Of a stretch of 64,000 nt of DNA, positions 2,680 to 60,090 are shown piece by piece. The DNA is taken from assembly GCF_037975245.1 (NCBI RefSeq), contig NC_092568.1, positions 24,969,501-25,033,500 of the forward strand, given 5' to 3'. A program made the translations under genes and the position numbers. Source of the stretch: Apostichopus japonicus (Eukaryota; Echinodermata; Holothuroidea; Aspidochirotida; Stichopodidae). Position 1 is the stretch's first letter. Every line of letters starts with the position of its first letter. Under the pieces are notes generated by a model that saw only the letters and a list, made by a program, of their open reading frames with translations, did no database searches and was not told the origin of the DNA.

Positions 2680-3091
2680 CAGTGGCGGAGCTAGGGGTAT
2701 TAGTCAGGGGGGGGGGGGATAATGGTCTGTAGGGGCGCTTTCGACACTATCTGAGCTGAGCGCCACCACGAGTTGGCGCGGACCGTACAGAAATTTTTGG
2801 AGTAAAGATACTCCCTATATCGCCGGAAATGACCCTTTCCGGGCCTTGCTAATTTGCAGATAAACGAAGAATAAAAAGCTGTTAGAGCATTTTGTCAGAA
2901 AATTACACCAACAAAATGTGACAAATGTCAATAGGTAGATGAGAGCGCAATAAAAAAGTCAATAAACAGTCAATAATCGCGAATAAGTAAAAAGTGGTAA
3001 AAAGCTGAAAAGGGCGCCAGCAGTCCATTTGAGTCCGCCAGGGGGGGGGGCGGGACATCCGCCCCCTGACTGTATGGACGCTCCGCCACTG
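2680..3091. mobile_element. hAT-like MITE, 412 bp, with 8-bp target duplication
   Basis: The ends are inverted repeats, CAGTGGCGGAGC on the left and its reverse complement on the right. They are flanked by a perfect 8-bp duplication AGTATCAG (2672-2679 and 3092-3099). A CAG-starting TIR with an 8-bp duplication is characteristic of hAT transposons. Subterminal G runs (about 2708 and 3041) and a two-hairpin module at 2745-2846 lie inside. No transposase is present, so it is non-autonomous. A second copy of the family lies at 59023-59401. Confidence 0.9.
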
Positions 3092-3099
3092 AGTATCAG

Positions 3100-4419
3100 G
3101 AAGGTATAGCGACTTATATAATTGCAGGCAGTACATTAAGTAGGTTGGGTGCATGACACTTGTACTCCCAGTTAGAATTGTATCAACATAATATACCTAT
3201 TACAGGAAAAGGGAATACGTAACTAATAAAAGACAATTAAAGCTTGATTATGATATATTACACAAATCATTTCTGTCTGTGCGGGTATATGCAGGAGAGC
3301 TATGACATGTGTACATGTATATAGTACTTCCGTTGTCAGGATAATAAGGAAATATAGATAACCGTACCGTATACTAGCGTTCTGATAAAAGGATGATTCA
3401 CAGCTAAGAGAGATAGAGAGAGTGAGGCGGGGAGAATACAGAAAGGTAAATTAATATGAGCTGAGTTAGATATATGGCCTACATTAATGTAACCCGATCA
3501 TCATGATGATTGAGAAATGTTTATTGCTGTCAACGGCTTTAAATGTTCGAAGTGAACAGACCCAATTTGATGTAGGCATGCTCTGATTATTTCTGTCACT
3601 TTTGTCTACTATATGTTAATATTACCTATATCTTTCACTGATATCCTGTGTATATCGCTGTATTATATGTCTCTATAGGGTATTATAGGTCACAACAACA
3701 GAGGTGAAAGGGATTACTCATCCTTTTGTAAATGAAGTCATATCTATAAGATTACAAAGTGATGTCTAATTAGATCAGGACAATTAGCTTGTTAATTAGT
3801 AATAAAGCTCTGTAGTTTTGGGGCTCTTTTATGATGATAAAAAACTGAGGATATACAATCGACTGTTTGCTACATTGCTCTTCCGATTGCTCAATACCGT
3901 TGCGATCTGCAGCTGAGAGCAGGTCAGTAGCCATACGTTACCGTACCATGGGAAAGGGATGTAGAGGGATAAGGGTAAGGTGGGGAGTGTGTTGATATAA
4001 CACTTTAACCTATTTACAATAGAAGTATAGTCACGATTCAACGCCCCTCCCCCCCCCCCCATTGGTAATATACCCTTCCCCTCCACTACTCAAGGGAGGT
4101 AATTGTAACATGGATACAGTCGAAACTTGCCAAACTTCATACATTCATTCTCAATTGGTCCATTTGGCGTCCGTTACAAGACGATTTCTTAGTGAGGGAA
4201 TTTGTGAGTGTCTTACCACAAGTAATTCCTCCACTTACACACTAAATTCACCACTCCCCAACCAGGGAGTTGTTCCAATATTGCCTCAACATAAGATAAA
4301 CGTTCGGCTGACCTGTACCTACACCATTATATGATGGCTGGGCCTCATGACGTTTGTAAATTATCCCACCAAGACCTTTTAGATTTTTTTTTTTTGGGGG
4401 GGGGGGGGGTAGAAGCTCT
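3100..4419. other. Intergenic, no gene seen
   Basis: This is unique AT-rich sequence with a short (AG)-rich patch near 3408-3425, a C run at about 4049 and a T/G run (4384-4409) abutting the next element. The short open frames overlap each other on both strands and show no domains. Confidence 0.5.
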
Positions 4420-4840
4420 CGTTTATGGCAAGCCATGGGAGACAAACACCGCATAACATATCCGCGTATTAATTTGAATATATACGCGTATTAATTCGAA
4501 TATAAACACGTATTAATTCGAAGACATATGAGGATTAATTCGAATATATACACGTATTAATTGGAATATATACACGTATTAAATCATTCTGTTGTCTAGA
4601 TCAAGTACGCGAGGCCTGGGTGTTGATCAATAAAGACTAACTTTGCAATCTCTCATTTATTGCACTGGCGAGGCTGCCAGGTGATAACTCTCGAAACTCG
4701 TTTGTGAAAGCTGTAAGACATGCCAGATATTGTCTGATTTAATACGCGTATATTTATATGAATTAATACGCGTATATAGAAATTCGTATTAATAAACGAG
4801 GATATATATGCGGTGTTTGTCCCATATGGCTTGCCAACGA
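4420..4840. mobile_element. TIR element with AT-rich subterminal repeats
   Basis: The left end (TGGCAAGCCATGGGAGAC followed by AAACACCGCAT, 4426-4455) matches the reverse complement of the right end (4801-4836) over about 36 bases. Inside the left TIR are five or six imperfect 20-24-bp repeats of the type CGTATTAATTCGAATATA (4460-4580). Inverted versions of these lie near the right end (4738-4795). There is no coding capacity. I could not establish a target duplication. Confidence 0.75.
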
Positions 4841-6176
4841 TTTTCTAAATCGCCTTAACATCCCGATATTTACTCTATCATAGTTTATCTCATATTCTTT
4901 AAAACTCAGCAAAAACACCAGGAGCCAATATTACAAGTATAGGCCTATACGTGTGATATTAAATTTATATATAATATTACAAATTTCTCAAAACCCTGTG
5001 CGGGAACATACCCGACCATTGAAAGAAAGATAGGTTACTAGGCATACTAAAAATGGCACCAGAAACAAACTCAATGGCTTGACAAATTAATACATCAAAT
5101 TTTAAGTTGCTTTCCTTAGATTGAATCAATGTGGTTGGTATGAAAATGTCAACTGATTGTTACCACCTCTATATATTTACGTGAAAAGGTACCCAATTGT
5201 AAATAAATATTCCCATTATACTGCTTGGTGCATGGGAAATGCACAAACATAAACTTACGCAAAACTCAGCTCTACAAATTTTTCAATCACTTAGTTAGGC
5301 GTACAATATTTTGTATAGCCTACACCTATATTTCATCATTACATTATTTCTGAGACATACACACACCATTAGCATGCCATTCGCCCAGCTTCTCTGACAG
5401 GTAGTCTTGTGTGATTTACAAAGTTATTCTCACTTTGTTTTTCTCGAGAGGGATCATAACGACGGGTGCATGGTTCATAATGATACAACTGGGATAATTT
5501 TCTTTAATTTCTGACCAACAGCGAGCTGTCATCGGTTTTCTTTGTGAATATTTATTACTGCTTCTTTTGAAAATGTAAAACAGGGTCTCTTAATGACGCA
5601 AATAGTGTATGATTCACGGCTCCATTAGTCTGCCATTGCAAATGAAATGGGCTCATTCTGTATCGGTCTAGTTCTCCATGATCAGTTTTATCTCACAAGG
5701 TTCACCTTGGGGCCTATTACGCGTTATAATTTTTGCTGAGGGTCAGAACTAGAGAATGTCCCCTGAAAGTTTCCAGATTATGGTTATTACTTCATGGGGA
5801 CGTCAAGGCTAAGGTTAGAGAAATGCATAACGCAAAAAGAAAGAGTACAAAAACAATAAAGTAAAAATAAATGTCTTTTTCTCATCCGCACAGTCATATC
5901 TCTTCCCCTTGCTGAAGTATTTCGCCTTAGTGAAAATTGAATTGTGAAATAATCTGTGCTATCTCCAATGACTAAATGGTATTTGCTTTTTCCATCTTTT
6001 ACTTATTCATTTTCCTCTCGTGTAATTAGGGTTTGTTATTAATTGTATTATTTGTTGTTGTTGTTGCTGTTGTTGTTGTAGACTATACTTATGTTTCAAA
6101 TCTTGGGGAAGTCTTTATGATTCTTTGCACCAGGAGCACAGAGATTTGCATCATATGTATATAAGTCAATGTCAGC
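4841..6176. other. Intergenic; short GTT microsatellite
   Basis: No gene is seen. A (GTT)n tract with one GCT interruption lies at about 6052-6079, just before the large tandem array. Confidence 0.5.
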
Positions 6177-7171
6177 AATATAGTAGCTAACTCCAGCTAC
6201 ATAGTAGCTTACATCAGCTACATTTTAGTTTATATCAGCTATACATACTAGCTTACATCAGCTACATAGTATAGTTTACATCTGCTACATAGTAGCTTAC
6301 ATCAGCTACATTTTATTTTATATCAGCTATACATTCCAGCTACCATTAGCTGCATATTAGCTTACATCAGCTACATAGTAGCTTACATCAGCTACATAGT
6401 AGCTTACATCAGCTACATTTTAGTTTATATCAGCTATACATACTAGCTTACATCAGCTACATAGTAGTTTACATCAGTAACATAGTAGCTTACATCAGCT
6501 ACATATACTACCTAACATCAGCTACATAGTAGCTTACATCAGCTACATAGTAGCTTACATCAGCTAAATTTTAGTTTATATCAGCTATACATACTAGCTT
6601 ACATCAGCTACATAGTAGTTTACATCAGTAACATAGTAGCTTACATCAGCTATATTTTAATTTATATCAGCTATACATACTAGCTACCATTAGCTGCATA
6701 TTAGCTTACATCAGCTACATAGTAGGTTACATCAGCTACATTATGGTTTATATCAGCTATAAATACTAGCTTACATCAGCTACATACTACCTAACATCAG
6801 CTACATAGTAGCTTACATCAGCTAAATAGTAGCTTACATCAGCTACATTTTAGTTTATATCAGCTATACATACTAGCTTACATCAGCTACATAGTAGTTT
6901 ACATCAGTTACATAGTAGCTTACATCAGCTATATTTTAATTTATATCAGCTATACATACTAGCTACCATTAGCTACATATTAGCTTACATCAGCTACATA
7001 GTAGGTTACATCAGCCACTTTATGGTTTACATCATCTATAAATAGCTTACATCAGCTACATCTACCTAACATCAGCGTATACATAGTAGCTTACATCAGC
7101 TACATTTTAGTTTATATCAGCTATACATACTAGCTTACATCAGCTACACAGTAGCTTACATCAGCTACAGT
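6177..7171. repeat. 1-kb tandem array, unit about 21 bp, with higher-order structure
   Basis: The array repeats variants of AGCTACATAGTAGCTTACATC. Each standard unit contains AGCTAC-ATA-GTAGCT, a perfect 6-bp inverted repeat with a 3-nt spacer. A variant block (CATTTTAGTTTATATCAGC then TATACATACTAGC) recurs at about 6221, 6416, 6567, 6846 and 7103. The stretch from about 6567 to 6846 is repeated as a block from 6846, giving a higher-order period near 280 bp. It has no coding potential. Confidence 0.95.
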
Positions 7172-10100
7172 AGACTGTTCGGAACTGAAGGCACGCATTC
7201 GAGCCATTAACTGTTGATTTTAACTGTCGGTTATGAGTGGCAACCGACTATGCTTTGACTACACATGAATATCCTTTCTAATATTTAAAGTAAATTCTAA
7301 CCCATAGAAATTGAACTAGGTCTCTTTTGCGAAGGTCATGGTCATAACCCGCAAAGACACAGTACTTCCCGTATGTAAAACCGCGATTCATATCACTTTG
7401 CTGTAATAGTGTATATGTACGCCAGTTTAACCATAAACGTATTGTTACCTGGCATGGGTAAAACTTGAACGAAAGTAGGCATCTGGCTTGCTTTCAGGAC
7501 CACGTTATTTTAAGGTTCAAATTATCATATAGAAAATTTGTCGTCGTTATAACACAAAAATTCAAACATGAACTTGGATACTATAAACGAAGAAACCAGG
7601 CACTTACGTAATGGAAATAGATGGGAGAGAATGGGGGGGGGGGGGATTTTGCTAAATTTTTGATCCAAATGTTGACAAATTGACAAACCATTGTAAACAA
7701 AGATGTTTTTCTCTTGATATTTCAAGGTGAACGAATGTACAAGATCCTCGGCTGATTTGCAGGGAAATCATGTCTCATAATTCTTCCAACTGCATTTTCG
7801 TATAGTTTACCGTACTAGGCCATATATGTCGCTGCTATTTTCAGCTCTACGTGTCCTACTGTGGTCCCGTGAAGTTCATATTAAGTTAGATACATGTGAA
7901 ATTGTTACCAGTGATGTTACTGAATGAAAACATCCTTTGGCAATCTTTTGCAACCACTTGTATGAAAATCAAAACACAGACCATGTCTTTCAGGAAGCTA
8001 CAGGCGGTGAGAATTTATTGTTGGATCTTTAAACAAACAGACAAACTAAAAGATCATAATAAGAGAATCTCAGCATAAAATGAAAGTAGGAAGAGGAGCT
8101 CGCACGGCACCCTTGTCTATGCATACAACGGTAAGTATAGTATCCATGCCATTAAAGTGTTTCCTCATACAAGATAAAAAGCAAATATTGTTTGGTTGAA
8201 GGGAGCTGATAACCTACCCCCAAATTGATGGAATTATAGCAGAAGCTAGCTTCGGGCAAGTGGATAACCACTTGCTTGTGTTGTGTTCGATTTGCGTGTT
8301 GTTGTTTTGTTGTCTGTGTGTTTGATGTTTTTGTTTTTTGAAAGGGTTTATACGGGTAATTTTGTATTTCCTGTTTGACAGGGCCATATCTTCCAAATTT
8401 GTACAAAGTTGCCAAATAACTTCATTTATTAGTATAATCTGAAATAGATTATATATTTATCGATACAAAGGACCATCTCTAATGTTTTTTACATACTTCG
8501 ATGGTGGGTAACCTTCCTAACCACACCTTCTCTTACCATTTGAATATTCATGACACACTGTCACAGTAATATAACCTACTATATAAAGCATCGTTCTTGC
8601 CAACGTGCAGTAACAATTCATGGATATCTACTCTATAACACCCGTATAAATTAAAGACAATACCATGGCGCGCTGAGTACTTTGCAAAAGGTGCCAAATT
8701 AGAGCCACGGTTTGCACTAATGACTTTGCGATAAAAGAACGACCACCGCATGTATTATATAGAAGCAGTATGGCGATGTGGGTCACGAAGTCAAGATCTG
8801 TAATTCAAATTTCTGGCTGGGAGTTGATAAAACTGCCTGCAAAACCGATCAACCAAAATTCATATTGTTTCCCCGCCAGGTCTATTTATTATTAAAGAAA
8901 CACATGCTTCGCCGGTCGAAGTCATACTTGCCGAATGTGTGATTCCAGATGTGCTCTGTCGCAACTTCACTTGATTGATGAACTTTTATAGATATTAATT
9001 GTTGGCAATTAACAGCAACTAAACCCACATACCTTCCGAGGTCTAATGAGTGTCGGAGAAACTTGCGTGATAAGTATAACGTCACTTCCTGTCCGACGTG
9101 CGCAGGATTCCAAAGATGGGCCCAAATTATTCCCCGAGTGAAGTTAGGTAAGAGGATTACCCGTTGTGGAAGGGTGCCCTGGGCCTAGAGGAGTGGTCTA
9201 ATTCTTACCCTTTTCTATTCTTTAATGTAAGGGGGGACAATACTTTGAATGAACAGATCACCCCGATTGATGATTGAGATTGAGGGAGGGGTAGGAGGGA
9301 GGGGAGGATATGTCACTTCATCCGCGTACTTTCGGAGACACACATCGATATGATATTAGCCTTAAAAGTCATCAATATTGGCCATTAAATATGCTAGAAA
9401 TTCAAATAACCCTCAACTTATTTGCTACTTTACCCATTTTCAATGCCTGAGACGACTTTGGCATTCGATCAGAACATCCTAAGAGATCATTTTCTAAAAA
9501 CTATTACAAGTTTGGGTATATGCTTAAATCTGGGACCAATTCTGATGCCCTGTTAACCTCCTAATGATTGAGAACGGAAAGCATTGCACTGTCCTGCCCC
9601 GCATTGAGTTATCACAGTATTGTACCATAAAGAGCACTACTATATATGGCAATGACACGCTGTCTCTGTTTGTTTGTGGCTAGACCCGCTTGACGGGCAG
9701 TACGCCCACCCTGTCCCACTTCAATCAATATGAATTATTGTACCCGTAATGAAGAATGAATGTGACAGAATCAAAAGGCAAACATACCTACACATTAATG
9801 CAACTACAACCAGACATTGTTGCTAATCTATTTTCAAAGAGCAGGTTATGGCAATGAAGACGCATTTGAAATTACTGTTGAGTTGTTTAAAGTGGAAGAC
9901 TGCCATACAATTTGGTATATCCAATTCCCAATACCCGTGTTATAGACTTTCCCATGTTTTTCTCTCGATTTCGGTTTCCATTAACGGAAAAAAATAGAAG
10001 AAATGTTCTGATTATAATATGTACATGGTGACAAACGTCGACCAGTCAGTCTATGTACAAAGACTGTGTAAAACACACATTGTATGGTATTGGTGAGACA

Positions 10101-11020
10101 TAACCCCAAACAACCTGATTGGTTTCGACAACTAGTGATATAATTCCTGAAAGAGTCTTTAGAGACTGGCGAGAAGGACCAAACACCGTGGAAGAAAATG
10201 ACACGGAATCCTCGAGAGAGTGAACAAAAGAAATAAGTCGGATTAAAGTTAAAACTCAGAAAATATCACCGGGATATTTGACATTATCAGTTGGGGACTC
10301 GTTAAATTATTGTGTCAGTTTCACAAGGGTTCGTTCTAAAAGAAGAAGGGAAAAAATTGGATATATTTTGATTGCGCTACTTCTGAGGGGGTTCTATGAT
10401 CATTCCCTGTGGGTTTAAAGATAGCAGTGCGCTTGCGGCACAAGATATGTTTCGTACAATAACTGCATCTGCCAAGTAGATACGTAAGATTTACGATTTG
10501 TTGGATAACCGGCATTCCAACACGAAAATGGTGACCGGCTTCTTTTTTCCCTTTTCATCAGACTGGATAAAAACTAGGCCTCCCGTGCTGGGATTCGCCA
10601 AGAAGTAGGCATATGTCTATGAATAATGACTGGTTCAAGTATACGGCATGATGGTGCGGCTGGGTACGGGTAGAATCAAAATATCGTAGAATAGCTCGTT
10701 GGCCTTATAGCAATGACGTCAATACGTCTGTACGGTTTGGGTTATACGTTGCTGGTATAAGTTGCTGTATTTGAGTCTCGGCGCATATGTTTATGAGATC
10801 TTCAAAAACAAAAAAGTCTAAATAACTCTAAAATAGTCTTGCAGTACGATTGAGTAATACAACAACAACATGAATAGGAAGGAGTACATGTTGATTCCCC
10901 TTGACATGGATACACTTATGAGTATAATGCCTTAAACGTGGGTATACAAGTATAGGGCCTAGTATTTATTCTTACACTAATATGTGTACCAGATTTCCAA
11001 AATGTTTCGAGTACGAGCCC
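7172..11020. other. Intergenic, no gene seen
   Basis: This is 3.8 kb with only short open frames and no recognisable protein. It has a G run at about 7633-7645 and a purine-rich patch at 9285-9310. I found no TIR pairs or RNA genes. Confidence 0.5.
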
Positions 11021-11259
11021 AATTCAACGAGGGCGAGTACAAATCGACTAGGGCTTGTACAAATCGACTAGGGCTTGTACAAATCGACAAGGGCTAGTAA
11101 AAATCGACTAGGGCGAGTACAAATCGACTAGGGCTTGTACAAATCGACTAGGGCTTGTACAAATCGACAAGGGCTAGTAAAAATCGACTAGGGCTTGTAC
11201 AAATCGACTAGGGCTTGTACAAATCGACAAGGGCTAGTAAAAATCAACGAGGCGAGTAC
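11021..11259. repeat. 20-bp minisatellite with 80-bp higher-order repeat
   Basis: The unit is GGGCTTGTACAAATCGACTA. Four variants (A gggcgagtac, B gggcttgtac, B' ending gacaa, C gggctagtaa) run in the order A-B-B'-C, A-B-B'-C, B-B'-C. This makes an 80-bp higher-order unit that has lost one A unit in the last copy. Degenerate half units flank both ends. Confidence 0.95.
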
Positions 11260-12923
11260 AATAACTACTATAGCTATATAAGCCGGGATAGTTCTACGAG
11301 TACGATTATGGACTCACTACATGCCTGCTCTTACGTAAATCTATAAAACGAAACAAGAACAAAATAGCAAAAACATTGACCCGAAATGCCACATTTTCAA
11401 AACTTGGTATCGACACTCTGCATGTATTAATAGTGCACTGACGGTACTGTGGCTTAGCTGGGTACATTATAATGTTAATGTCATCCGGTCAATTCTAACT
11501 TTAAATTGATTGGAAATTTATTATATCTATATAGATTTATATCTCTATAGATATATATCTAGACTATATATATAAAACCGATTGGCTTTATCCGGAAATT
11601 CTGAAATATGACAAATATATTGAAATTGGAACTTGTGCGGTACTACCAAACAGTACTTTTTAATGTCATTATATGGTGACAACGTATATAGAGTAATATA
11701 GTTATAACTATTGCAACCAGTGAATCTGTACTTGTTAAAGTCGTTTTACGTGTATGTTTGTGTTAGCGGTGGCGCGTGTGCGGTAATATCATGATATTAT
11801 TATCCTATCGAGTACTTCTATAGTCGACAGCGATAGACCAAGTCACTGTTATTCATGTCGTTCAATCGCGTATCATAAAATAAAACGCGTTTAAATCATG
11901 AATAGAATATTGTCCAGATCAACAAAATCTGACATCACGCAGCCAACGATGTGACAAAATGTTATGACAAAGTTATAAACACAATAATTAATAGCTGCCC
12001 TTTGACTCTATAGCCTGCTTTCCAAGCCACATTACAACTCATGGTTGGTTGTTCTCGCGTCATGGAATAGCACAACATGATTTACTCTAGTATACATGTT
12101 GACACGTAGGTGACTCATTGAATAGCTTTAAAGAGCATCATGTTTCGTTTGGTTAACAAGTTTACCAAACCTACTGTAAAGTTAAAAAAATAAGATTGCA
12201 ATAATCGTATAAATTTGGTTGAACTCTCAATATATCGTCAGTCATCTTAAATGCAGTTGGCTGTGGCATAGGCTATTTCTTACAGCGGTAATAGTAGTAG
12301 CCTTACTGGTGTTCTTATACAGTATAGCCTCATATAGTCCGTCAATACTATATACAGATTGGCAATAGTATATTACATGTGTTCTTATCGGTCACTATAA
12401 GGTTGCGAACCATCTTGAGGAACCGAAAGCCAGGGGGCTTCTTACGTTTTCATGAGGGTTACTGCTACAACACCACCTTGGCACTATATAGGATCGCCTT
12501 GTTCGCGGACCCACAGTATGCATTATGGGGTCGTGGAATCGACGCCATGCTTAAATTTTTTAAATTTAGGATTGAGTCGAAAGGGACATGTGAACCTGCA
12601 CAACCCTTTCTGATCATAATGAAAGTTTCATGACTGTCTACTGACAGTGGTGCAGCTCTCTTATACAGTTGTTGCAGTGTAAGATCAGGGAACTTAAACA
12701 TGGCATTCCAATGGTTATATCTGGAAATCCATCAAACCAAAATGGCAGCTCCCTGTGTGACGAAAGTAATATATACTACAGAGTCACTGAATAACCTATG
12801 TAAGACACACGAGGAAATTGAAAGGAATATGTAATACCACAAATCATGAAATTTTCAACCTGTATATTAATAGTACAATATTATATAGTACAATATTATT
12901 TAAAGATCTAAACTTTGTATCAG
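11260..12923. other. Intergenic, no gene seen
   Basis: An AT-rich, partly palindromic stretch lies at about 11520-11575. Overlapping open frames at 12379-12701 on opposite strands show no recognisable domain. Confidence 0.45.
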
Positions 12924-13082
12924 CCAGTTGGGACAATTTTCTATGGCTAATACCTCTCTAAACTGTACTCCAATACCATGCTCTCCAAGCACTGCTGGTA
13001 TTGCCAGTACAAACAGTTCCTAACCTTGATCTGATAGAAACATGATATTCATACTGCTCATACTGACAATACGAGTGCTTAG
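12924..13082. mobile_element. Truncated copy of the CCAGTTGGGACAATTT MITE
   Basis: The left TIR CCAGTTGGGACAATTT and about 150 bp of interior match the complete copy at 29475-29677 at roughly 85 percent by eye. Similarity stops after the segment ending ACGAGTGCT, so the right end is missing. Confidence 0.75.
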
Positions 13083-15750: not shown

Positions 15751-15753
15751 ACA

Positions 15754-23359: not shown

Positions 23360-23779
23360 TCACTTTCTCTTAAAGTACCTCTTGCATAGGACGTTATCCA
23401 TCTTCTGCTCTAGCACCAACTGATCATCTTCTAAATACCTGACAAACACCGGACCACGTTTCTCTTCATCATCTACCAACTGCACGACTAACTTGTTTCC
23501 TTCCCATCTGGCTATCATCAGGCATTCTTCTGCCTCCCAAGGTAGAAAACACTTGAAAGCAATGTCGATACAAAAGTTCTGTGTGATGCTTCTGTGAACG
23601 GTGTCCGTCCTGATGGTAAATTTATCACCATCCTGTGTGATATACACAAGGGGAGAGACCGCTTTGGCCAGATTCCGCCTCATGAAACTAACACCACAGG
23701 CTTTCAGAAATGGTTGCAGATTATAACTGTTGACAAGTTGCCATGTACCATTGAAATTCATATCTTGCTTCAATGCCAT
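23360..23779 (-). CDS. FABP-2, fatty acid-binding protein family, single coding exon
   Basis: The product is 139 residues and is a predicted cytosolic lipid-binding barrel. MNFNGTWQLVNSYNLQPFLK matches the FABP start (G-T-W-x-L), and ACGVSFMRRNLAKAVSPLV matches the helix-turn-helix cap. GDKFTIRTDT is the strand that follows the cap in this family. The end LCKRYFKRK keeps Arg-x-Phe, with the second carboxylate-binding Arg in VFVRYL. The central part (CIDIAFKCFLPWEAEECL) is unusual for the family, with extra cysteines and an acidic stretch where most members have the K-x-G-x-x-F-D-E turn. I start at 23779 (ATGGC, Met-Ala); the frame is open to 23872, but those residues look like leader sequence. 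No intron is present in the coding region. Confidence 0.85.
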   Translation of the reverse strand: MALKQDMNFNGTWQLVNSYNLQPFLKACGVSFMRRNLAKAVSPLVYITQDGDKFTIRTDTVHRSITQNFCIDIAFKCFLPWEAEECLMIARWEGNKLVVQLVDDEEKRGPVFVRYLEDDQLVLEQKMDNVLCKRYFKRK

Positions 23780-23842
23780 TTTCAAAACTCCGATGACTAG
23801 TTCTATGCGAATATTTATTTCAACACAAAAATTGAGTTCGAC

Positions 23843-24391
23843 ACTGGGGAATACCGAATAAAGTTTCCTCACTCCTTGATATGACTGCTATACCAGGCTC
23901 CTGACTGATATGCTCCCCAGTTGACTCATTGAAGTGGTTGCAGTCACAGATCCCTCAATTTTCTGATATTGGTGTCAAAAATAAGTAAATCACCAGTTTA
24001 CAGGCTATGCCAACGACAACATTATAAAATCTATACCAAACTGCTTACACTATGGTGATGCACCGTACTATGCAATTTGTGTATGTGTGTGTGAAACCGT
24101 CAGTTCTCATGAGTCAAGTTCCTACTACTTCAACTTGTGTAGGCGGAAATGTACAACGAAAAGTGCCGGGTATGCAATTTACATCGGCGAAGTCACAATA
24201 GGCTTATCATACACTACAGAAAGTGATCGATAGGCGATACTGCCTAAAGTCAAATGTACAGTAGACCTAGTGCGAATCTGATCTAAAAAAAAGTAATAAC
24301 TACTACGTCCACAATGACCTCACGCAGTCATAAGTCGAAGGGAGGCAACTCTAAAACGAAAGGAATCAATCAGCCCTAATTGTAGCTTACC
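23843..24391 (-). other. Possible leader intron and upstream exon boundary of FABP-2
   Basis: On the minus strand an AG acceptor after a pyrimidine-rich run (ggtattccccag) would start the coding exon at 23843, 64 bases before the ATG. A donor of the form CG|GTAAGC would end a leader exon at 24391. The pairing is inferred only from splice-site quality and from similar leader introns in FABP-4, -5 and -6. Confidence 0.3.
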
Positions 24392-25901: not shown

Positions 25902-26250
25902 AACACATCAGGGTTATACACGTATTCGAGAATACATTTAGAGGGCGGCATACATATTTAATCGTAAGAGACGTATGCAAACATATACATCACCATTTTC
26001 AAGTTCTTCACGCTACATGCATGACATGATGAGGTTAGGCAAATTACTGAACAGTAGCGGCGTAGCCACGGTGGAAGGGGGACGGGGTAACAGTGCCCCA
26101 GATATCTGTCAGCCTCCCCTAAAACAAATTGTCAGAGAAATGTTTTTCTTTAGAAAATAGGTAATGTCCCCCCTCCTCCTAGAATAGCATCCGCCTTCAT
26201 GGGCGGCGATCCGTACTTCCGAGTGGGGGGGATATGACCTTGTTGACTAT

Positions 26251-26272
26251 CAGAGCCGTATATACGGCTCTG
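26251..26272. mobile_element. 22-bp perfect palindrome inside a 9-bp duplication
   Basis: The insert is CAGAGCCGTAT followed directly by its exact reverse complement. It is bracketed by GTTGACTAT at 26242-26250 and again at 26273-26281. The related element at 36086-36931 has a single GTTGACTAT at the same place, so it shows the empty site. The structure equals a transposon reduced to two fused TIRs. Confidence 0.85.
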
Positions 26273-26409
26273 GTTGACTATCTAAGCGTAGCGCCACCAT
26301 GTGTTGGCGCGAAGCGTACAAGAAAATTTTGGGATTTACAAACCCTCTAGATGGCCGGAAACGGCACTTCCCGAGGTTTCCAAGCGGCATATATAATACC
26401 CAACTTTAT

Positions 26410-26505
26410 TTTTTTTTATTTATTTGTTTGCCACAAAAGTACAAAGTGGAGGGAAGTCTTCCATAAAGCTTAAAAGCTTAACAATGTGGAAGACTCCCTG
26501 AAGAA
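26410..26505 (-). mobile_element. Insertion of about 100 bp with a T-rich start, retroposon-like
   Basis: This segment is absent from the co-linear copy near 36265. It begins with a T run and TTTATTTATTTG on the plus strand, which reads as a poly(A)-type tail on the minus strand. That would suit a short LINE or SINE 3' end. It also holds an imperfect inverted pair (GGAAGTCTTCC and GGAAGACTCCC). Confidence 0.5.
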
Positions 26506-27093
26506 AGAAAATAGGGATATCATGTCCGAAATATCTCAAAATCAGGATCCAAAATACTTTTTTTTTAATTTCGGGTGTTATTTTGGGAAAATTGCCCCTG
26601 TCAATCTTGTTTCAGGCGATACGTTAGAATGTTCGAGAGCTCTTTTATATTATTCAATGAAGAAAATGGCCTCATGCAGGCTATTATAGGCCTATACACA
26701 TGCAATACACAACTTTCACATAGTTACATTCCTAGGTACCGATTGCTATGGCATCCAGGTGAAACGTGTATTAAGCATTACCCTGGTAACATGAGATTCT
26801 CAGCTGTTCGAGGGAACATGTTCGTGTGTAGGCCTACTATAGGGCCTATATGAATACTATGAGGGTGCATATATGTACTATATCAATACCGTGGGCGCAA
26901 TAATACATTTTGTTGTTATAGGGCCAATGAAGCCTACAGTCAACTATTCTTGCTTTATAAAGACGGTTTATTTGAAAAGATCGCACTGCGTTTATGGTAG
27001 GCGAGAAATGAAGCTAAAAAGAGCCGTACATTCACGATGATGCATAAATGAAGGCATGAAAATATTCTTATCCCTGGCATTTGGTGGGGGGGG

Positions 27094-27942
27094 GGGTTTG
27101 TTTTCTAGAACTGACTAGATCAAAGGAAACATATGTTTTGACTGATGACGGCAGCAAAAAATGGCAGGCACAACTTCGACCAAACCTTGTACTTCTGACT
27201 GAACTATTGCCTAAAATTGTCAACCTTTGTTTACCCGGCAACGACAAATTCGTGATCATTTTAATTTTTTAATAGTCTTAATTTGTATTTGTTTTTTGCA
27301 ATTTTTATTTTGGGATTGTACCATTCAGTACAATTCAGTGAGTTGGAAGACACCAGTCCCCCAGGCCCCACCCCACCCGCTCCCTCCTGCATCATTGCTT
27401 TGCTATACCAAGGCATCATGATCATATTAAAATATATCTAAATTCCCTTCCGCCATCGAACTTAGGTATATACTGCATGTTGTTGGTACTCCGCATTATA
27501 GGCAAATTACATTAATTAGCGTAATAATCCATCACTGAAAAAAAAGATGTTCCAACAGTTCCATACATGTTTACTGTGATGACCTTTGTTCTATTTGCAA
27601 ACGATTGAACTTTGTGATTATCCCTGGAGTGGTTTTTTCTTCTTCAATTTTTTTTTGTCGAGGTAGCCAATTGCTATACGGTGTTTCTTTATGGGTCGTG
27701 AGTGTATTTGATATTACACGTTTGTGTTGACTTTGAACATTAAGTTTATGACTGGAAACGCGTTAATTGTCTGAAATTCGGCGATTTCTGGTACAGTTCT
27801 GTTTTTTTTTGTGTCAATATAAAGTGTAAGCACTGTTACGTAACTGTAGCACCCGTTATCTTGGATTGAATGGACCCACACCATTATATATACACCGATA
27901 AAATATCACTAAACTGTGTGATGTAATTATATCCAGACGTGT
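27094..27942. other. Intergenic upstream of FABP-3
   Basis: No gene is seen. Overlapping short frames at 27068-27272 on both strands are not supported. The proximal promoter of FABP-3 is expected at the right side of this stretch. Confidence 0.5.
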
Positions 27943-35949: not shown

Positions 35950-37290
35950 CAGGGGCGTATCCAGGATTTTCCAATAGGGGGGGCGCCAGGCATGAATGAT
36001 CGCCGTCCTGGGGGATGGGTCTAAGGGGAGGGGTGTACAATTTTTGCTTTCAAAGAAGGGCTGAAATGCAAAATGGTGTCATATGCATGGGCGGCGATCC
36101 GTACTTCCGAGTGGGGGGGGGGGATATGACCTTGTTGACTATCTAAGCGTAGCGCCACCATGAGTTGGCGCGAAGCGTACAAGAAAATTTTGGGATTAAC
36201 AAACCCTCTAGATGGCCGGAAACGGCACTTCCCGAGGTTTCCAAGCGGCATATACCCAACTTTAAAATAGGGATGTCATGTCCGAAATATCTCATAATCA
36301 GGATCCAAAATACTTTTTTTTTTAATTTCGGGTGTTATTTTGGGAAAATTGCCCCTGTCAATCTTGTTTCAGGCGCAACGTTAGAATGTTCGAGAGCTCT
36401 GTTATATTATTCGATGAAGAAAATGGCCTCATGCAGGCTATTATAGGCCTATACACATGCAATACACAATTACACATAGTTACATTCCTAGGTACCGATT
36501 GCTAGGGCATCCAGGTGAAACGTGTATTAAGCATTACCCTGGTTACATGAGATTCTCAGCTGTTCGAGGGAACATGTACGTGTGTAGGCCTACTATAGGG
36601 CCTATATGAATACTATGAGGGTGCATATATGTACTATATCAATACCGTGGGCGCAATAATACATTTTGTTGTTATAGGGCCAATGAAGCCTACAGTCAAC
36701 TATTTTTGCTTTATAAAGACGCTTTATTTGAAAAGATCGCACTGCGTTTATGGTAGGCGAGAAATGAAGCTAAAAAAGAGCCGTACATTAACGAAGATGC
36801 ATAAATGTAGGCATGAAAATATTCTTATCCCTGGCATTTGGTGGGGGGGGGGGGGATATGGTGCATTACATCCCCTCCACCCATTTTCATGGGGGGATAT
36901 ATCCCCCCTCCACCCAGGATCGTCGCCCATGGCCATATGTGATCCATTTTTCGACCTTAATAATAAGCAACATTTCCAGTAAATATGGACACAAAATGCA
37001 CAATTTAGTATGGCTGGCATGTCATTTAGTGTTTATAGTGATAATACAAACACAATTACCATCTATGTTTCTAAAACTATTATGCCGCCGAACTTCGCCA
37101 GAACCTTTTTTTGGCAAACAAAAAATAAAGCATACGGGAGGGGGGGGGGGGGGTTGAGCGATCACCGACATCTCACATAAAGGTCGTCATCAATTTTTTT
37201 TTTTTTTTTGCTTAACTTTTTTTTTTTTTGGTGACGGCCAATAGGGGGGGCGCGCGCCTGTTGCGCCCCCCCCCCCTGGATACGCCCCTG
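35950..37290. mobile_element. hAT-like outer element, CAGGGGCGTATCCAGG ends, hosting a nested element
   Basis: The left end CAGGGGCGTATCCAGG is the exact inverse of the right end CCTGGATACGCCCCTG. G runs lie just inside the left end, and G and C runs lie near the right end (37243-37276). The element at 36086-36931 sits inside it with its own duplication, so this one is older. The flanks share only ATTTG (35945-35949 and 37291-37295), not the 8 bp expected for hAT. Confidence 0.75.
36086..36931. mobile_element. Complete CATGGGCGGCGATCC element, 846 bp, nested
   Basis: The TIRs are CATGGGCGGCGATCC and the inverse of CATGGGCGACGATCC (one mismatch). The flanks GTCATATG (36078-36085) and GCCATATG (36932-36939) form an 8-bp duplication with one difference, as expected for hAT. 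A two-hairpin module lies at 36137-36240. No transposase frame is present. A second, truncated copy lies at 26198-27093. Confidence 0.88.
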
Positions 37291-45446: not shown

Positions 45447-45739
45447 CAGGCGCGTAGCCAAGGGGGGGCGAAGGGGGCAGCCGCCCCCCCCCCCCCTTGA
45501 GCAATTTTTTTTTTTTTTTTAAATATTTTTGTGAAATCGCTAGTATTTTTAAAAGAGAAAATGCTAAGATGCAACTTACAAGGCCTGGGAAGTGCCATTT
45601 CCAGCGATCTGGGAGGCACTTTCAGCCAAAATTTTCTTGTACGCTTGCGCCAACTCATGGTGGCGCTACGCTTAGATAGTTTGCAATGCCAAATCAACAG
45701 TTTCGCCCCTCCCTTGGCAAATTCCTGGCTACGCGCCCG
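45447..45739. mobile_element. hAT-like MITE, 293 bp, with 8-bp duplication
   Basis: The left end CAGGCGCGTAGCCA pairs with the right end TGGCTACGCGCCCG (one mismatch at the outer bases). It is flanked by a perfect GTTTGGAC (45439-45446 and 45740-45747). The two-hairpin module is present on the minus strand at 45582-45680. A G run and a C run lie inside the left end. It is related to the element starting at 59757. Confidence 0.9.
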
Positions 45740-45747
45740 GTTTGGAC

Positions 45748-51329: not shown

Positions 51330-51606
51330 TCACAAAGAGAATACAGTAACTATATGTAAATCTTAAAACTTTGTAGCACAGTAAAAACTGGATTGTGCTG
51401 ATAAATATCATATAAATCAGTAGCATGTGCTATTAGGTTTACAGTAAGAACGGAGGATATGTGTAATCCCAACAAATCCCAACAACTGGATTTCTTGGAA
51501 TTACACATATCCTCAGTTCTTACTGTAATCCTAATAGCACATGCTATACCGATTTTATAGCACGATCCGGTTTTACTTTGGTACAGTAACTGTGTTCTCT
51601 GTATGT
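51330..51606. mobile_element. Foldback element, arms of at least 52 bp
   Basis: The inner arms 51421-51472 and 51495-51546 are inverted repeats with 3 mismatches in 52 and a 22-nt loop. Weaker pairing continues outward to about 51335 and 51600, including GTAAAAACTGGATTGTGCT against GTAAAACCGGATCGTGCT, and CAGAGAACACAG at the outer end. Nearly the whole segment can fold into one hairpin, typical of a foldback MITE. Confidence 0.85.
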
Positions 51607-54600
51607 ATATCGGGTGCTCCTGGGGAGGCCCTATTGTAATTATTTTTTCTTTGGGGTGAGGGGGTTAAATACAAAATGATGCTCTTATTTCCATCATAAA
51701 CACATTAAGTTGTATGGAACAGGCTTCTAGTCTTTAGAGTGCGTTATTTAATGTATTAATGTAAGCTATAGCTAATTGGTAATACCAATCCGATTTTGTA
51801 GGGGGGGGGGGCGGTTACTGAAACAACTATCATGCAAATACCGCGGAAATTAATTGAGATCATTTTTATCATTTCTGAGGGTTGGGGCTTGGGGCTCTGG
51901 GGGTCAATGGCTCCGTCCTCATGGAATATCTTGTCTCAAAAAGAAAATGCGGAATACTGGTATCGACCAGTAAACTATACATAAGAATATCACGTGACGT
52001 GATTCAAAGGAAATTATCATGCATCTTTTTAATTAACCAATCATAAGCATTGATAAAGATTAAACACTTGTATATATTAATCTCAGTTATCAATTCGAAT
52101 CCTGGAAAACAAACATCTCTTTTTTTTATATCACAATGAATAACGGTTAATTAAAATCTTGTCTTGTTTCATTTAATAGTAAATTAATTGTATAAATAAG
52201 ATTAAACCAGATTTAATATCTCATTCAAGAGCTATAAGTCGTCTCAGTCCTCTTTTAACTGTGTTAAAGATAAGTGACAATGTATTCTTTACATGTAGCG
52301 AGATAGAGTTTTGAAGTCAAAGTATGAGGTCCAACTGCAGGCGGTGACCTGATGTCTATAATTACTCAAGTAGGCTACGACGGATTTGGAAGCACGTTAC
52401 AGAGTAAATATACAACGAGAGGTTTGAAGAACGCCGATAACACACCGATAATATCTACAATGGAATACACCGTATGTTCTCACGAACTTTAACCTAAAAC
52501 CTTGAAGGTCATAATGACTCGAGGTAAGCCTTACGGTTATCGTACACAGGGCACAGTGGTAGGATCTAGCATTTTCCAATAGGTGGGGGAGGGGCCGGGG
52601 AACAGTATCGATAGATATCGAGTTTATCCGAAGTTTGTACATTGTGTTTTTCCTATCCAGCACCCCCCCCCCCCTCACGATGAATACGATGAATACGATC
52701 CCGAAGCAACTGAATTACTATCATTTGAACACATAATAGGGGCTTATGCCTAAGCGTTGTAATGGACCCACGTTATGCCTGGAATAAGAGGACAAGAGAA
52801 GAAAAGGGTCTGACGTTATCGCGGTCGTTATTACCCCCCCCCCCCACCCCCCCCCCCCTTCGAGACCACCTCACTCACTCACGCACTCACCCAACCCTCC
52901 CAATAGTAAAGTTCCATTGAGGTTTAAAAAATATTTATCTGAAAGGGTAAACACGTTTTTACTGAACCCCGTGGGAACAGAACTTCTGTGGGAAATTCGA
53001 AATGATCCCGTGACAAACACTGGGTACGGTGGTAATGTATGCTCGGAAAACACAACAACCAAAAGCCATTATTTTCATGATTCTATCTATTTCTTCAAAG
53101 AAAATAATATACATATCTGATTATGTCGAGAATTAGGGTTGTTCCCCTTCTGCTATACACAGGCTATACATTTCGAGTGTAAGTGCACGTGCATGCATAC
53201 GATTATTAGGTTTTTACTTTCATGTGAATGTGTGTACGTTGTAGTACTTTTAAGCTGAACTTAACATAGAACTATTTGGAATAGAACAAAATATAAGGTT
53301 TTTTTTTTTTAAATATACAATGTCCAATTTTCGTACACTAATTTCCTGAACTGTAACTTTATTAACCGTCTACAATATCAACGCTACAAATTTTCGCCAG
53401 GTGGAGGGCGCTCTTTAGTTCGAGACCCATGAGTAATTTATTAATGAGGGTATTACTTCCATGGGAGAAGAGTGAATTACGTGTTTTTGTACGTGTCGTG
53501 TCACAACTTATTGCTCCGTTGACTTATATACACAGAATTGTCACTTTCCAAGCTCCTAATGCATATCTTATACCCAGCACATGATACTATAGCATATGAC
53601 GTGGCCTGTCATGATACTTGCAAATTTCCATTCCATGACCGTTTCGACCAGAGGCGGTGCAACCTCTAATTTCGTACACGAGGGTGAGGGGGGAGGGTAG
53701 GGAGGCTTTGGTGTTATGTTATCCAGGGGTGGCCCCTCCACTATGAGAAAGTTTGGTAAAACGGAGGGTGCTTAGATACAAAATGGTGATATATTTTACC
53801 ATTTTTGAAACAAAGTTGAAAATGTTTCGACTGTTTAGAATCGTATCGCACATACACATGTTAAAAATTCATGGATTGTACACTGGGATTTTGTTTGTTC
53901 GTCATGAATAAAAAATATGCCAAAACACATCCACTTTCTTAAGTCCCATTGAGTACTTTTCCGTTTTGACGTATGTATATATACGTACACTACTCTAACT
54001 GTGGTACTAGAATACTTATATAATATCGATGATATTAGACACATTTGTTGTCCTTCTTGTAAATATATCGTACATTTTTGGCAGAAAACCATCGTATGCC
54101 ACTCCTTGCTATCCGCACACACCTCACACCTTACACGCACCCCTCCCCCCACCTCTCTCTCTCCTCACACATCTTACCGAAGGTCATTGTGTATTGTTCT
54201 TCATAAAGCCATGATATGCCGATACCCCAAGCCATCAGGCCATGTGCCATTGATAACCACAAATAGAAACCAGTTCAGTTTTGATCACATGTCAATTTAC
54301 TTAAGATATGATGTCTAATAGGAACACGACCCGCTGGAGTGATATATTAATACTGCAAATAAATTAAAGTTCAAACCCCATGAACGGCATTGTATTATGG
54401 CGGTGTGGTGTCAATTATGAATAAACAATATTAATTCTTCTTCATTGCTGTAGTGTGTATCTATTACAAAGTTACCTATAGTAAATAATATATGAACTCA
54501 ATACACGTTACATGTCCGTTGATATATGCTAGCTGAATACTCACTGCCGTCTCATCACAACTAATTAGCTCTCCATACAAATGCATTTACGGGGTGGGCA

Positions 54601-57600
54601 GTTACCCGTTATATATTTTAAATCCATTTTATTAATGGTGAGGCGGATTGCACATCGAAATAATAATTTTGTTTTTATTGTATATTTCTATAATATTCCT
54701 CACATAAAAATACAGAACATGCGAGTGATAAGCAAACGTACAAAGAAAGAAAGACTTGACTTCGTAGAGCTCAAAAGAACACAGACCTAATATATACAAG
54801 TGCCATTTGAAATGAAATTCAAATATTTTTTGTATAACTAGAGCATTACCGCAGTAAATACCTTCGTCGTAAGACAACTTATACATAGTCAGTATATCCC
54901 CCATTGCAGTCTACAATGATTTCATTTCTGAACATGATGCAAACACTAAAATATGAATATGTGGAATAATCATTTCAGTATTCTATAACACTGTAACATA
55001 ATTCCACTGAAAGATTTGCCCTTTTCTTTATTTCCGACGGTTCGTTCTGAATTTCATCAACCTTTTGAGCAACTCATCAGCAAAGAAACATTTTTTTCCA
55101 AAGGCTTGTATTTAAAATGATTAAACAATGATTCTCTAATAGTATAATTAGCCATAGAAAATGAACACCTGCAGATTACAAATAACATGTGAATATATTG
55201 TTTAATGCCACAGTATTGTTACTCTATTATATTTTTTTATTATTAGACACGCGATGAACAATATTAGTATTTTTAATATTTACTTGAACAAAACAAAAAA
55301 TATATGCGAATATAGTAAACTATGTAGCTACTTTTTTTTAATTGTATTCGATTTCTCTGTAACTCACTTATGTTTATTACGACTTTGCTTTTCAATTTAG
55401 CTGTACAGGTTTAGCTACCGAATGCCGTTGAAGTTTGATTGGGTGTTCAAAGGTTAATATAGGTAAACTTGTAAACCCACGCGAACTTTGACGGCTACCA
55501 ACAAACTGAATCGGTTAATCATAAGAAGTCGTGTGTACACAATTTTAACAATTATGAACCTTTAGTTAGTTTGCGATCTGTGTTTGATTTAGCGTAGAGT
55601 GCTGACAGCTTATCTTTTGTGCGGAAGACTGAGATTTAAAATGAACAAAGATTATTTATGAAGAAACAGCTAAGAAAAAACTTCAAGGGGATCATTAATC
55701 TCAGCTTCTGAAGTTAACTATACAAACTGATAAAGAAATAAAATCAGTCTGGAGCAGGGCTAGAACCGTGGCACACTGCCTTCTCCTACAAAATTGACTT
55801 TGGACCCCGACTGTGATTGGTCCTTTTATAACTATGGCGGATCAAAATGGAAAGACTATACCAAGATGAATCATCACCTCAAAATATGATGACGTCAAGT
55901 TTTCCCAGGGTAGCAAGGCTGACTCTATAGCAATGTAAAGGTCACAGAATAAGTCGAGAGATCATATTCATTTGTTTCGTTTTATATCATGTCCATTTAT
56001 AGGTTAAACATGAAATATAATAGCGAACACTTGCTAAGCTATGGAGGTACTATACTCTCTCCTTTACCATTTGTCTGTTTTTGGACAATTTGCTCCCATC
56101 TGCTCCCATCAATTTGCTCCCATCCCAATTTGCTCCCACCCCCCTATTTCCCGTCCCAACCATGCATGAACCGCTAACACTACCAAATATTTGTTATCCC
56201 AATGAACGAGTGACATGTTACAATACAGTTTATTAGTGTATCTTCTCTCGCCATGAAATGATGCTTGAACACAAATTTTATATTGCTATAGTGTTGTTAT
56301 ATGAACATCACAAAGATTACTTCAAACCTTAAGAAACATGCAGTGTGTGTCCCCTTCTGTTTAAGAAAACTTTTCAGAATATAGAGAGTGCTTCGATACA
56401 GAAACGTTGCCGATTGTTTAAGATTGTAACCCATATACATGTTATATTGGCCATATATGTACTCTACAATATGAATCTTTGTATTATTCTGTTTGCGGGG
56501 GGGGGGGGGGGGGAGGGAAAGGGGTGAGTCACTTAAAGTCCCAGACGTATACGTAGCTGTACCACTGTCTTAGAATGGTAATGTATTGAGAATTGACTAT
56601 AGGCTCGTGTTTATAAATTGGATTGATTCTTGCTGTGGACGATTCATGTTCAAATGGTTGAGTATCTGAGGAGATTGGACAAGAAAATATAAAACATGTC
56701 TATACTATAACAGGTAAACCGACATTTACATTTATAATGAGTATTGAGTTGTAGGATAGTTGCCTTTACTCGCGTACGATGGAGATGGGTGTGTGTATGT
56801 GGGGGAGGGAGGGGGGGTATAGAAGGCTAGGTTGGCGAAGTTAAATGGTGGATTGTATGTGATAATTTCACGAATTGAAATGAAAGATCATACACTTATG
56901 TATCCATTAGAAATGGTGCTATGCAATGGTGTATTATGGTCGATTTTTAACGGCGTCTTCCAGGCTCTTAATAGGAATAATGAATGCAAAGGTTATAGTA
57001 TAGCTAACGATTGGATAAGGTTCTTATATCATATACGATATATGTGACCAGAAAAAATGCAAACAAAGAAAAGAAACCACAAAATAGTAGGTCCTTTTGA
57101 TACAACTCCCCACCCCCCACCTCCCTTGCCCGTTAGGCTCCCCGGATAGTCCCTGAAATGTCCATAAGATACATACATGACTATACCATGCACTTTACAC
57201 GGCAGGCAGCGAGTCAGTGTTACTCGTCACAGAGGTTATATTCCACGTGCAGATGCTATCAGTATCCCAAAGCTTGTTCAAATATTGGAATCTATACAAC
57301 GTGATGATACATCACGTATTAATGCAAATCTCTGCAATCCTCTATACTTTAGTAACGTTCTTCTAGTTAATTTCTGTAGCGACATCAATATACAATCATT
57401 CGTGTATGTATGACTGTTTAACAGTGTCAGCGTGACGCCTAGGTGACGTCATTCATAATACTACCACAATACTGTGCAGGGTGGTCGGGGACCCCGTTTC
57501 AGGCTATACTGTACCCAGTTCAATGAGACAATCGAGATTTACCGCACTAGTTCTGTAAACTAAGGTGTATATAGGTTTCCGTAAATTGCAGCTACTGCCC

Positions 57601-58334
57601 CCCCCCCCAACCCCACCCCTGTCCACTTCCTTCTCTTTCCTTCTGTCGCATAATTCGGATCCCAAAGTTAGGCCAGTGTACGTCACGGCAAGATACAGAG
57701 GAATTATAATAAACTATAAAATCGTTACAGTGAAGGTGACAGTTAAAGAGGTTTCTCCACTGACTGAATGTGTGCTTCACATCAAGGTTCACACCCAAGT
57801 GAACTTGTCCCTCTCATTCAGCAATTCGAGTAGCAGAATGTGATACTATTCACGTAATTTTAACAACCTGCAGGGGTTTTACTCAGGTCCCAAACTTGGA
57901 AGGGTGCTGATATTTTCACCAAAGAAAAATATATGAATGTCCTGAAAAACCGGGCCAACATGAATCTACCTGACAGCCTGGGTGGATAATCGCCCCGACA
58001 AGACTACGTACATTCCCGACAACTGGAAGAATTTCAAACGACAAGAATTTCAAAAGCTCAGCCAGAAATGTGTTATTTGTTAAACTAAACATCAACGCTA
58101 TATTCTTAAGTCGATAGGATATATAATAAATTTGTAGAAGACGATGGATTCTTTGGGAGCACACCCTCCCCCCCCCCCCCACACACACACAAAGCCTACA
58201 TATTTCTGTTATACCTGTAAAGTGCCCTTTTCCTACATTAGAAGTGCTCCCTTTTATTAATGAAAAAGTACCCTCTTCCTATATTTTTGTACTAGAAAAG
58301 TTTTACATTCTTTATTACATTCTTTACCTAATAT
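51607..58334. other. Long intergenic stretch, no gene seen
   Basis: This is 6.7 kb with no recognisable protein. It holds many G or C runs (for example about 51801, 52666, 52835, 56498, 57599 and 58168) and a CAGAGGCGGTGCAAC end-like motif at about 53650. A short GCTCCCAT repeat lies at 56090-56145, and two T runs are present. Frames at 53835-54318 and 57177-57843 show no domain. Confidence 0.45.
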
Positions 58335-59022
58335 CAGGCGCGTATCCAGGATTTTCTAACCCGGGGGGCGCGAATTACTATCTAAGCGGAACCCCACCAT
58401 CGGTTGGCGCGCAGCGTACAAGAAAATTTCTTGTTTTGAAACCCCCCAGATCACCGGAAACGGCACTTCTCGGGCTTGAAATGACCAACCAGATGTACAC
58501 TTTTTGCCTGAGAACCAAGTATTTCCTAATAGTTTTTTTTCCATCCATAACCTTTTTGAAGATTGTCAACCCGGCACACATCATGTTCGACCTGATCGCA
58601 TCTCCTGTGGGTCTTTGCTTTTGTAGGTGATTCTACGTCGCGGCCCACAATACCCGTCAGCCCCACTTTTCAAGGTTTTAAGCCCCATATTTGTTCAGAA
58701 TTTGAAAATTCACATTTCTCGTGAATAAACTCACTTGAAAACATACCCATAATGTTGTACAAAATTTCATCTATGGACAACCAATATAGAAAAAACTTCC
58801 TTCAACCCCTAACAGACCGGTCAAACTTGCACGAGTAGAGGGAAGTGTGATGTAGAATGTTGGTCAGAAATTTTCTAAAATTCAGACATAGTTAATTTAT
58901 TGGTGTAGAAATATTAAAACCTGTTATAACGGCTATTATAAAACTTGGTTGAAAGGAAATGAAAAAATAGCAGATATTTCCGAAACCGAACACTACACAC
59001 ATAGGCGTAGGAGGCGCGGCGG

Positions 59023-59401
59023 CAGTGGCGGAGCTAGGGGTATTGGTCAGGAGTGGCGAGAATGGTCTGTAGGGGCGCTTTCGACACTATCTAAGCGGAG
59101 CGCCACCACTGGTTGGCGCGTAGCGTACAGAAAATTTTTGAGTAAAGATACTCCCTAGATCGCCGGAAATGACCCTTTCCGGGCCTGGCTAATTTGCAGA
59201 TAAACAAAGAATAAGGTGTCATCGCCAAATTACACCAACAAAATGTGACAAATGTCAATAAGTAGATGAGAGCGCAATAAAAAAGTCAATAATCTAGAAT
59301 TTGTAAAAAGTGGTAAAGAGCTGAAAAAAGCGCCAGCAGTCCATTTGAGTCCGTCAGGGGGGCATCCGCCCCCCCCTGACCATATGGACGCTCCGCCAAT
59401 G
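59023..59401. mobile_element. Second copy of the CAGTGGCGGAGC MITE, with 8-bp duplication
   Basis: It matches 2680-3091 along its length, with about 30 bp missing. The left end CAGTGGCGGAGC and the right end GCTCCGCCAATG (one mismatch) are flanked by a perfect CGCGGCGG (59015-59022 and 59402-59409). A two-hairpin module lies at 59085-59186. The insertion splits an older G-rich sequence. Confidence 0.9.
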
Positions 59402-59562
59402 CGCGGCGGGGGTGCAGGCGCTAATTCGCCATTACTAATGTAAAAGAGAGTTTTGACATAATTGGACCTCCATGCTTTTTATACATCTACATGAGACATG
59501 TCGTTGTTTACATTAGCATCCCGCGGTATACTGCGCAATTTGAACGAACCGTACGGTACATG

Positions 59563-59690
59563 ATGGCATGCGATGTAATAACCGATGCTTGCTTATATGA
59601 TATTGACATGAAGACGTTGAACGCGCGCTTCGCGCGCGAAAATTTTTGGTTATTTTTTCAGGCAAGTCGGACAGTTTTGAGGCTTTTCAT
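59563..59690. repeat. Dispersed repeat, partner of 25150-25275
   Basis: It is similar from GGCATGCGATGTAATA to GGCAAGTCGG. It contains the palindrome CGCGCGCTTCGCGCGCG, which is missing from the other copy. Confidence 0.7.
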
Positions 59691-59756
59691 CCTGGAACGA
59701 CATTTTCATGCTCACTGATATGATGTGATATCTGCTGTTTGCGTTACAAATTCGAA

Positions 59757-60090
59757 CAGGCGCGTAGCGAGGAATTTGCCAAGGGAGGGGCGAAGCCTGT
59801 AGGCAAATTATCTAAGCGTAGCGCCACCATAGGTTGGCGCGAAGCGTACGAGAAAATTTTGGCCGAAAATGCCTCCCAGATCGCTGGAATGGCACTACCC
59901 AGGACCATTTGTTAGCGCGAAGCGTACAAGCAAATTTTGGCCGAAAATGCCTCCCAGATCGCTGGAAATGACACTTCCCAGGCCTTGTAAGTTGCCTCTA
60001 AGCACTTTCTATTTTGAAATTACTTAGCGATATCATTTAAAAAAATGCTGAATGGGGGGTGGCGGGCGGTCGCCCCCATCCCAAAATGCG
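59757..60090. mobile_element. hAT-like MITE related to 45447-45739, internally duplicated
   Basis: The left end CAGGCGCGTAGCGAGG and the segment GAATTTGCCAAGGGAGGGGC match the 45447 element in opposite orientation. The two-hairpin module at 59809-59904 is followed by a partial second copy at 59912-59984. The right end is unclear beyond a GGGGGTGGCGGGCGG tract near 60055. Confidence 0.65.

Follow-up and report, generated by a model that had tools for sequence, protein, structure and literature searches.

A module of about 100 bp, shared by transposon families with different tips, has its source in one end of a complete hAT transposon, family I. We consider it somewhat better than an even bet, with a probability of roughly 0.55, that a set of hAT transposons carries this module at one end as a subterminal cis-element to which a protein binds and which they need for jumping. 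A preliminary description of the window (the whole 64-kb stretch of DNA that was analysed) had placed the module at eight sites, and inspection of the DNA located it at each of them. The elements and their modules are as follows.

2680..3091, + strand: family A MITE (A1), 412 bp, tips CAGTGGCGGAGC / GCTCCGCCACTG, 8-bp target duplication AGTATCAG
2745..2846, + strand: module in A1, 66 bp from the tip
26198..27096, + strand: family B copy B1, right end lost, extent given by similarity to B2
26276..26380, + strand: module in B1, with a 22-bp palindrome and 9-bp direct repeat inserted just before it
36086..36931, + strand: family B element (B2), 846 bp, tips CATGGGCGGCGATCC / GGATCGTCGCCCATG
36137..36240, + strand: module in B2, 52 bp from the tip
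45447..45739, - strand: family C MITE (C1), 8-bp target duplication GTCCAAAC on both sides, read from the sequence
45582..45680, - strand: module in C1, 59 bp from the tip
58335..60535, + strand: composite family D transposon, tips CAGGCGCGTATCCAGG and CCTGGATACGCACCTG, its own target duplication inexact
58377..58478, + strand: D's own module, 42 bp from the tip
59023..59401, + strand: family A copy (A2) nested in D, flanked by CGCGGCGG
59085..59186, + strand: module in A2
59757..60080, + strand: family C copy (C2) nested in D, right end truncated
59809..59904, + strand: first module in C2
59904..59984, + strand: tandem repeat, about 80 bp, of the C2 module

The MITE families A, B, C and F have the 8-bp target duplication of hAT elements, B with one mismatch (GTCATATG/GCCATATG at B2). 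Besides the duplications listed above, ACAGTAGC was read for family A and ATTGCTAT for family F. Four of the eight window copies lie within the single 2.2-kb composite transposon (58335-60535) and are not independent of each other. Module sequence is indeed present at 59912, where a partial copy had been described, but it is a tandem unit of about 80 bp of the C module rather than a separate copy. The C module in D copies consists of one to three such units.

Several other features of the window were observed. B2 is nested inside an element at 35950-37290 that has the 5-bp target duplication ATTTG, tips CAGGGGCGTATCCAGG and no module of its own. At the module start of B1 (26247-26275) lie the 22-bp palindrome CAGAGCCGTATATACGGCTCTG and the 9-bp direct repeat GTTGACTAT, and at L007 (entry names L007/L026) a sequence beginning CAGAGCC occupies the module position matching the palindrome insertion of B1. 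The B1 and L007 insertions possibly represent a transposon that targets the module. On the minus strand, 721-1200 and 23360-23887 contain genes for fatty-acid/retinoid-binding proteins of the lipocalin family (Pfam, 3.6e-11 and 1.8e-10), both of which appear as a single open frame with the usual introns absent.

A profile built from the eight window copies recovered the same eight at E values of 3.2e-22 or better and none in addition, a circular result in that the queries were its own building sequences. Independently of the profile, pairwise blastn between families aligned roughly 80-115 bp at E values of about 1e-24 to 1e-7. Long extensions were confined to pairs of the same family; between families the module aligned, and little else. 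Genome searches, in which 40 of 1080 and 40 of 2369 first-look candidates were scored, were followed up in fetched loci, which yielded the additional carrier families E to I, then J, K, M and L54. The genome pieces were compared through 13 family representatives. E, G, H, K and L54 are without a verified target duplication, J and K come from one shared composite, and all of these are defined as families by tips and flanks only. All 40 scored matches to family E (L014 5581-5797) also included the DNA to the left of the E tip, at 94% or more, implying that E is carried within a larger repeat. The background density of the module was 8 per 64 kb in the window and 3 per 50 kb in random pieces. Exact module patterns had no match in viral contigs and prokaryote genome contigs, collections that hold no animal genomes and are little informative here.

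In all families measured, the module starts 38-88 bp inside one tip and points inward. It opens with block 1, a near-invariant quasi-palindrome of about 43 bp whose arms GCGCCA and TGGCGC enclose a variable centre, and continues with an A/T run, a variable spacer and block 2. In the consensus of the 13 representatives, block 1 reads ACTATCTAAGCGNAGCGCCACCAYNNGTTGGCGCGNAGCGTAC and block 2 reads CAGATNGCNGGAAANGGCACTTCCCGGG. The mean pairwise identity of the representatives was 0.890 in block 1, 0.573 in the spacer and 0.789 in block 2, while the left 45 bp (0.471, shuffled 0.459) and the right 60 bp (0.524, shuffled 0.502) stayed close to shuffled sequence. Over the whole module the mean was 0.792 vs 0.494 shuffled. 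The spacer was above chance in global alignment (0.647 vs 0.449 shuffled), mostly through the A/T run. With block 1 at 89%, block 2 at 79% and flanks at the shuffled level, the proposal that families with different tips and little other similarity have a common core was borne out. The host ends had also been called unrelated; their sequences do differ, but the tips share CA(G/T)NNGCG-like patterns and are diverged rather than unrelated. The module is better conserved than the tips or the transposases of its carriers.

The preliminary description had asked whether a full-length hAT transposon carries the module, and family I does. This is a complete 5.5-kb element found in two copies with exact 8-bp target duplications.

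C17:7007863-7013383: family I copy 1, AGGCTGTA on both sides
near C17:6832476: family I copy 2, TATCCGAT on both sides

The tips of family I are CAGTGGCGGCGGAACCG and CAGGCGCGGCGGAACGG (the 5' tip read as CAGTGGCGGCGGAACCGGGGGGG, the 3' tip, in reverse, as CAGGCGCGGCGGAACGG), and these short inverted repeats starting with CAG are, together with the 8-bp duplication, of hAT type. So is the C-terminal dimerisation domain of the transposase: the 796-aa frame matched DUF4371 at 4.9e-19 and Dimer_Tnp_hAT (PF05699) at 3.7e-8, above the Pfam cut-off. A DNA-binding domain was not detected in this frame at E 0.01 with Pfam, and there was no BED match. A scan of the whole of copy 1 gave a single module match, about 750 bp past the stop codon and 47 bp in from the tip on the 3' side of the transposase gene; the module is one-sided in this autonomous element. 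The fetched piece (L066) contains two more matches, both beyond the limits of the element. The downstream flank L059 terminates in the family I tip; its second copy matches it exactly over the last 125 bp before diverging, and also over 2001 bp upstream.

Family M represents a second transposase family with the module at the same end. In two M loci (L050 and L063) the 1222 bp ending at the tip are 99.3% identical and the flanks beyond differ; the module lies 58 bp inside that tip, and the 5' end of M was not found. A comparison of I with M gave an identity of 90.3% for the module (93 bp) and 79.6% for the last coding bases (54 bp), with no significant match in the approximately 750 bp that separate the coding end from the module. 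Protein identity is 31.2% over 503 aa; the M frame in this comparison belongs to a third copy, and the module-bearing 3' ends were read in other M copies. A transposase whose fetched 1.4-kb 3' flank has no module is 35.7% identical to that of I over 715 aa. It is nearer to I than M is, indicating that the module and the transposase do not simply co-evolve.

The occurrence of the module next to transposase genes was surveyed more widely. PF05699 had at least 150 scored matches in the genome, of which 15 were chosen by hand for inspection of the 1.4 kb downstream. Six of these 15 flanks contained the module, inverted relative to the gene in five, where the background would lead one to expect about 1-3 in 21 kb of flanks. 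L050, L063 and L059 are the element ends described above; L051 is a nested E copy, L061 has a partial module only, and the module flank of L054 may be a nested MITE, with flanks ACAGTGAG/CCCGTGAG agreeing at 6/8 positions. Four of the 15 flanks had a tip-like motif, recognised by pattern only, and no module. Upstream, the 2-kb pieces of 12 transposase frames included one with the module, in two copies of MITE type. An 8-bp-duplication MITE (L015) and the 5-bp-duplication element around B2 are hAT-type elements with no module of their own. Some hAT elements here therefore do without it.

After insertion, the module decays neutrally. Within-family substitution divergence, measured over short stretches and with small numbers, was 9.0% in the module vs 7.9 and 7.0% outside in family A, 2.0% vs 0 and 2.6% in family B, and 8.3 and 8.7% vs 4.2 and 13.8% in family C. 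These similar loads imply that the constraint operates between transposition events and not on resting copies. The preliminary description had held that such equal decay, together with restriction of the module to one family with diverged ends, would speak against a specially maintained core; within families the two rates are indeed similar, but more than one family has the module.

Equal decay would also be expected if the module were a relic of common descent, i.e. if an old hAT lineage had a left end that by chance diverged more slowly and that has no present function. The hAT-like tips found throughout and a weak similarity that A, C, F and G show by eye for approximately 25 bp beyond the right edge of the module point the same way. 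However, the flanks have fallen to the shuffled level while the module has not, and a 43-bp stretch so alike in two carriers whose proteins are 31% identical is beyond chance. We regard descent alone as improbable.

Exchange among elements could explain 90% DNA identity beside 31% protein identity. The module would then be a stretch for homologous recombination without a function of its own, homogenised while nested and neighbouring elements exchange their tips and interiors. D and J have the same module (93/99) and the same 400 bp to its right (346 matches in 382 aligned) with different tips (31 matches in 55 alignment columns). Nesting is also common. Twenty D loci were fetched out of 40 listed matches, and 19 of them contained nested A and C copies with further modules; another composite occurs at L036. 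An exact 5-bp target duplication was present in 15 of the 20 D loci, two of which are one duplicated locus, and in a single copy from a random piece. None of the loci examined proved to be an autonomous partner of D. Against exchange, the spacer is far less alike than the blocks (0.573 vs 0.890 and 0.789), where a swap of the whole module would have kept all three alike, and the end and the orientation are constant. The recombination cassette put forward earlier is a less probable alternative; tips do change around the module, as between D and J, but a binding site fits the data better, and exchange without function seems unlikely on balance.

Two arrangements were seen among the composites and duplicated loci. 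The 1213-bp composite at L036 819-2031 has ATGGCAAT on both sides and, in its interior, two tips facing apart with TCTAACCG beside each, an inside-out arrangement. L020 and L021, both on C7, match at 97% for about 9 kb and form a segmental duplication with D and F elements inside it.

The inverted arms of block 1 and its location about 750 bp past the family I stop codon might suggest that the module is transcribed into a structured RNA, acts within a 3' UTR or serves as the transposase promoter. In 5 of 8 copies, at most 10 of 200 shuffles folded as well. However, gene-less MITEs retain the module, and the stem scores were barely above those of shuffles. Covariation in 18 sequences, a set inflated by related copies, had a score reached by 1 of 500 shuffles and a paired percentage reached by 9 of 500; with the 13 representatives these numbers rose to 33 and 162 of 500. 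Compensatory changes, sought as the preliminary description had advised, were scarce. Stem 1 is silent on pairing, for or against, because five of its six pairs never vary. In stem 2 a single pair was compensated (C-G to T-A), and another fails to pair in 12 of the 13 representatives; the self-complementarity attributed to the second block is perfect in family A only. The middle stem reached p < 0.05 in 2 of 17 correctly cut spacers. Scans of the module with Rfam and for tRNAs gave no match, and neither a known family nor compensatory pairs indicated membership in a structured RNA family. An RNA element was rejected as the main reading on these folds, pair counts and scans, and a role as RNA, UTR or promoter is highly improbable. 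A dyad protein site explains the invariant inverted arms and the variable centre at least as well as an RNA stem does.

Two other candidates were rejected. A coding module was dismissed since the Kozak-like ATG of some copies is unconserved and the variable columns of block 1 have no period of three, which points to noncoding sequence. Assembly of the module from TIR-like sites was compared with shuffled modules in 10 families, giving one p value of 0.02 and nine from 0.08 to 0.98.

A binding site for transposase or a host factor, one of the roles suggested beforehand, is the best-fitting reading, given the subterminal position and the presence in a full-length hAT. We infer that the module is bound, that transposition needs it, and that the binder would be either the transposase or a host factor. 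A protein would bind the block 1 dyad and so mark that end of the transposon, and the bound end would aid assembly of the transposition complex. Nonautonomous derivatives could drop the gene and keep the module end, while copies without the module would not jump. Conservation of the site far exceeds that of the transposases, which favours a recognition surface under very tight constraint or, alternatively, a host protein. The module may, as a doubtful yet credible version, be a docking site for a host factor and a common transposition enhancer of several hAT lineages, gained or kept by recombination around it. A constant host protein would account for a module at about 90% identity while the transposases (31%), the tips and the duplication length (8 and 5 bp) change. 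The arm TTGGCGCG resembles what we take to be an E2F-type site; if true, jumping would be tied to S phase. If a host factor binds, unrelated transposases would depend on one host protein, which would be a shared weak point and a route for families to be mobilised together. The conserved inner region now has a source in a complete hAT with two near-identical copies, which makes the binding-site reading directly testable by deletion, and the module provides a compact way to test how the ends of hAT elements are distinguished.

In the limited literature consulted, no publication was found that describes the module or an autonomous hAT carrying one of this kind. The closest precedent, as far as the available portion of that report shows, is the internal region of the CMITE families of Acropora (PMC2872659). 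These families have different tips and a common internal region with tandem units that is more conserved than the tips; it is described there as of unknown origin, with a suggested role in transposition, and as not found in an autonomous element. The present MITE families likewise differ in their tips and have a conserved internal region and tandem units. However, CMITEs are about 100 bp long and of TTAA/piggyBac type, whereas the elements here have 8- and 5-bp duplications and CAG-type tips in place of TTAA sites and piggyBac-type CCC tips, the module lies subterminally at one end only, and it has an autonomous carrier. Among hAT elements, groups named hAT5 and hAT6, with 5-bp and 6-bp target duplications, appear in the part of another report available to us (PMC12730594); family D has the 5-bp duplication of hAT5 and is likened to it by duplication length alone. 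In Hermes, according to the sections available (PMC10368747), BED fingers bind left-end sites that include a quasi-palindromic pair, and the right end binds none; the sites are short AAGT repeats, and adjacent A/T-rich sequence is required for binding. The module is likewise one-sided and quasi-palindromic with an adjoining A/T run, but its near-invariant block of about 43 bp is common to several families and no BED match accompanies it. By analogy with what those sections describe, our best reading is that the module would work like the asymmetric left end of Hermes.
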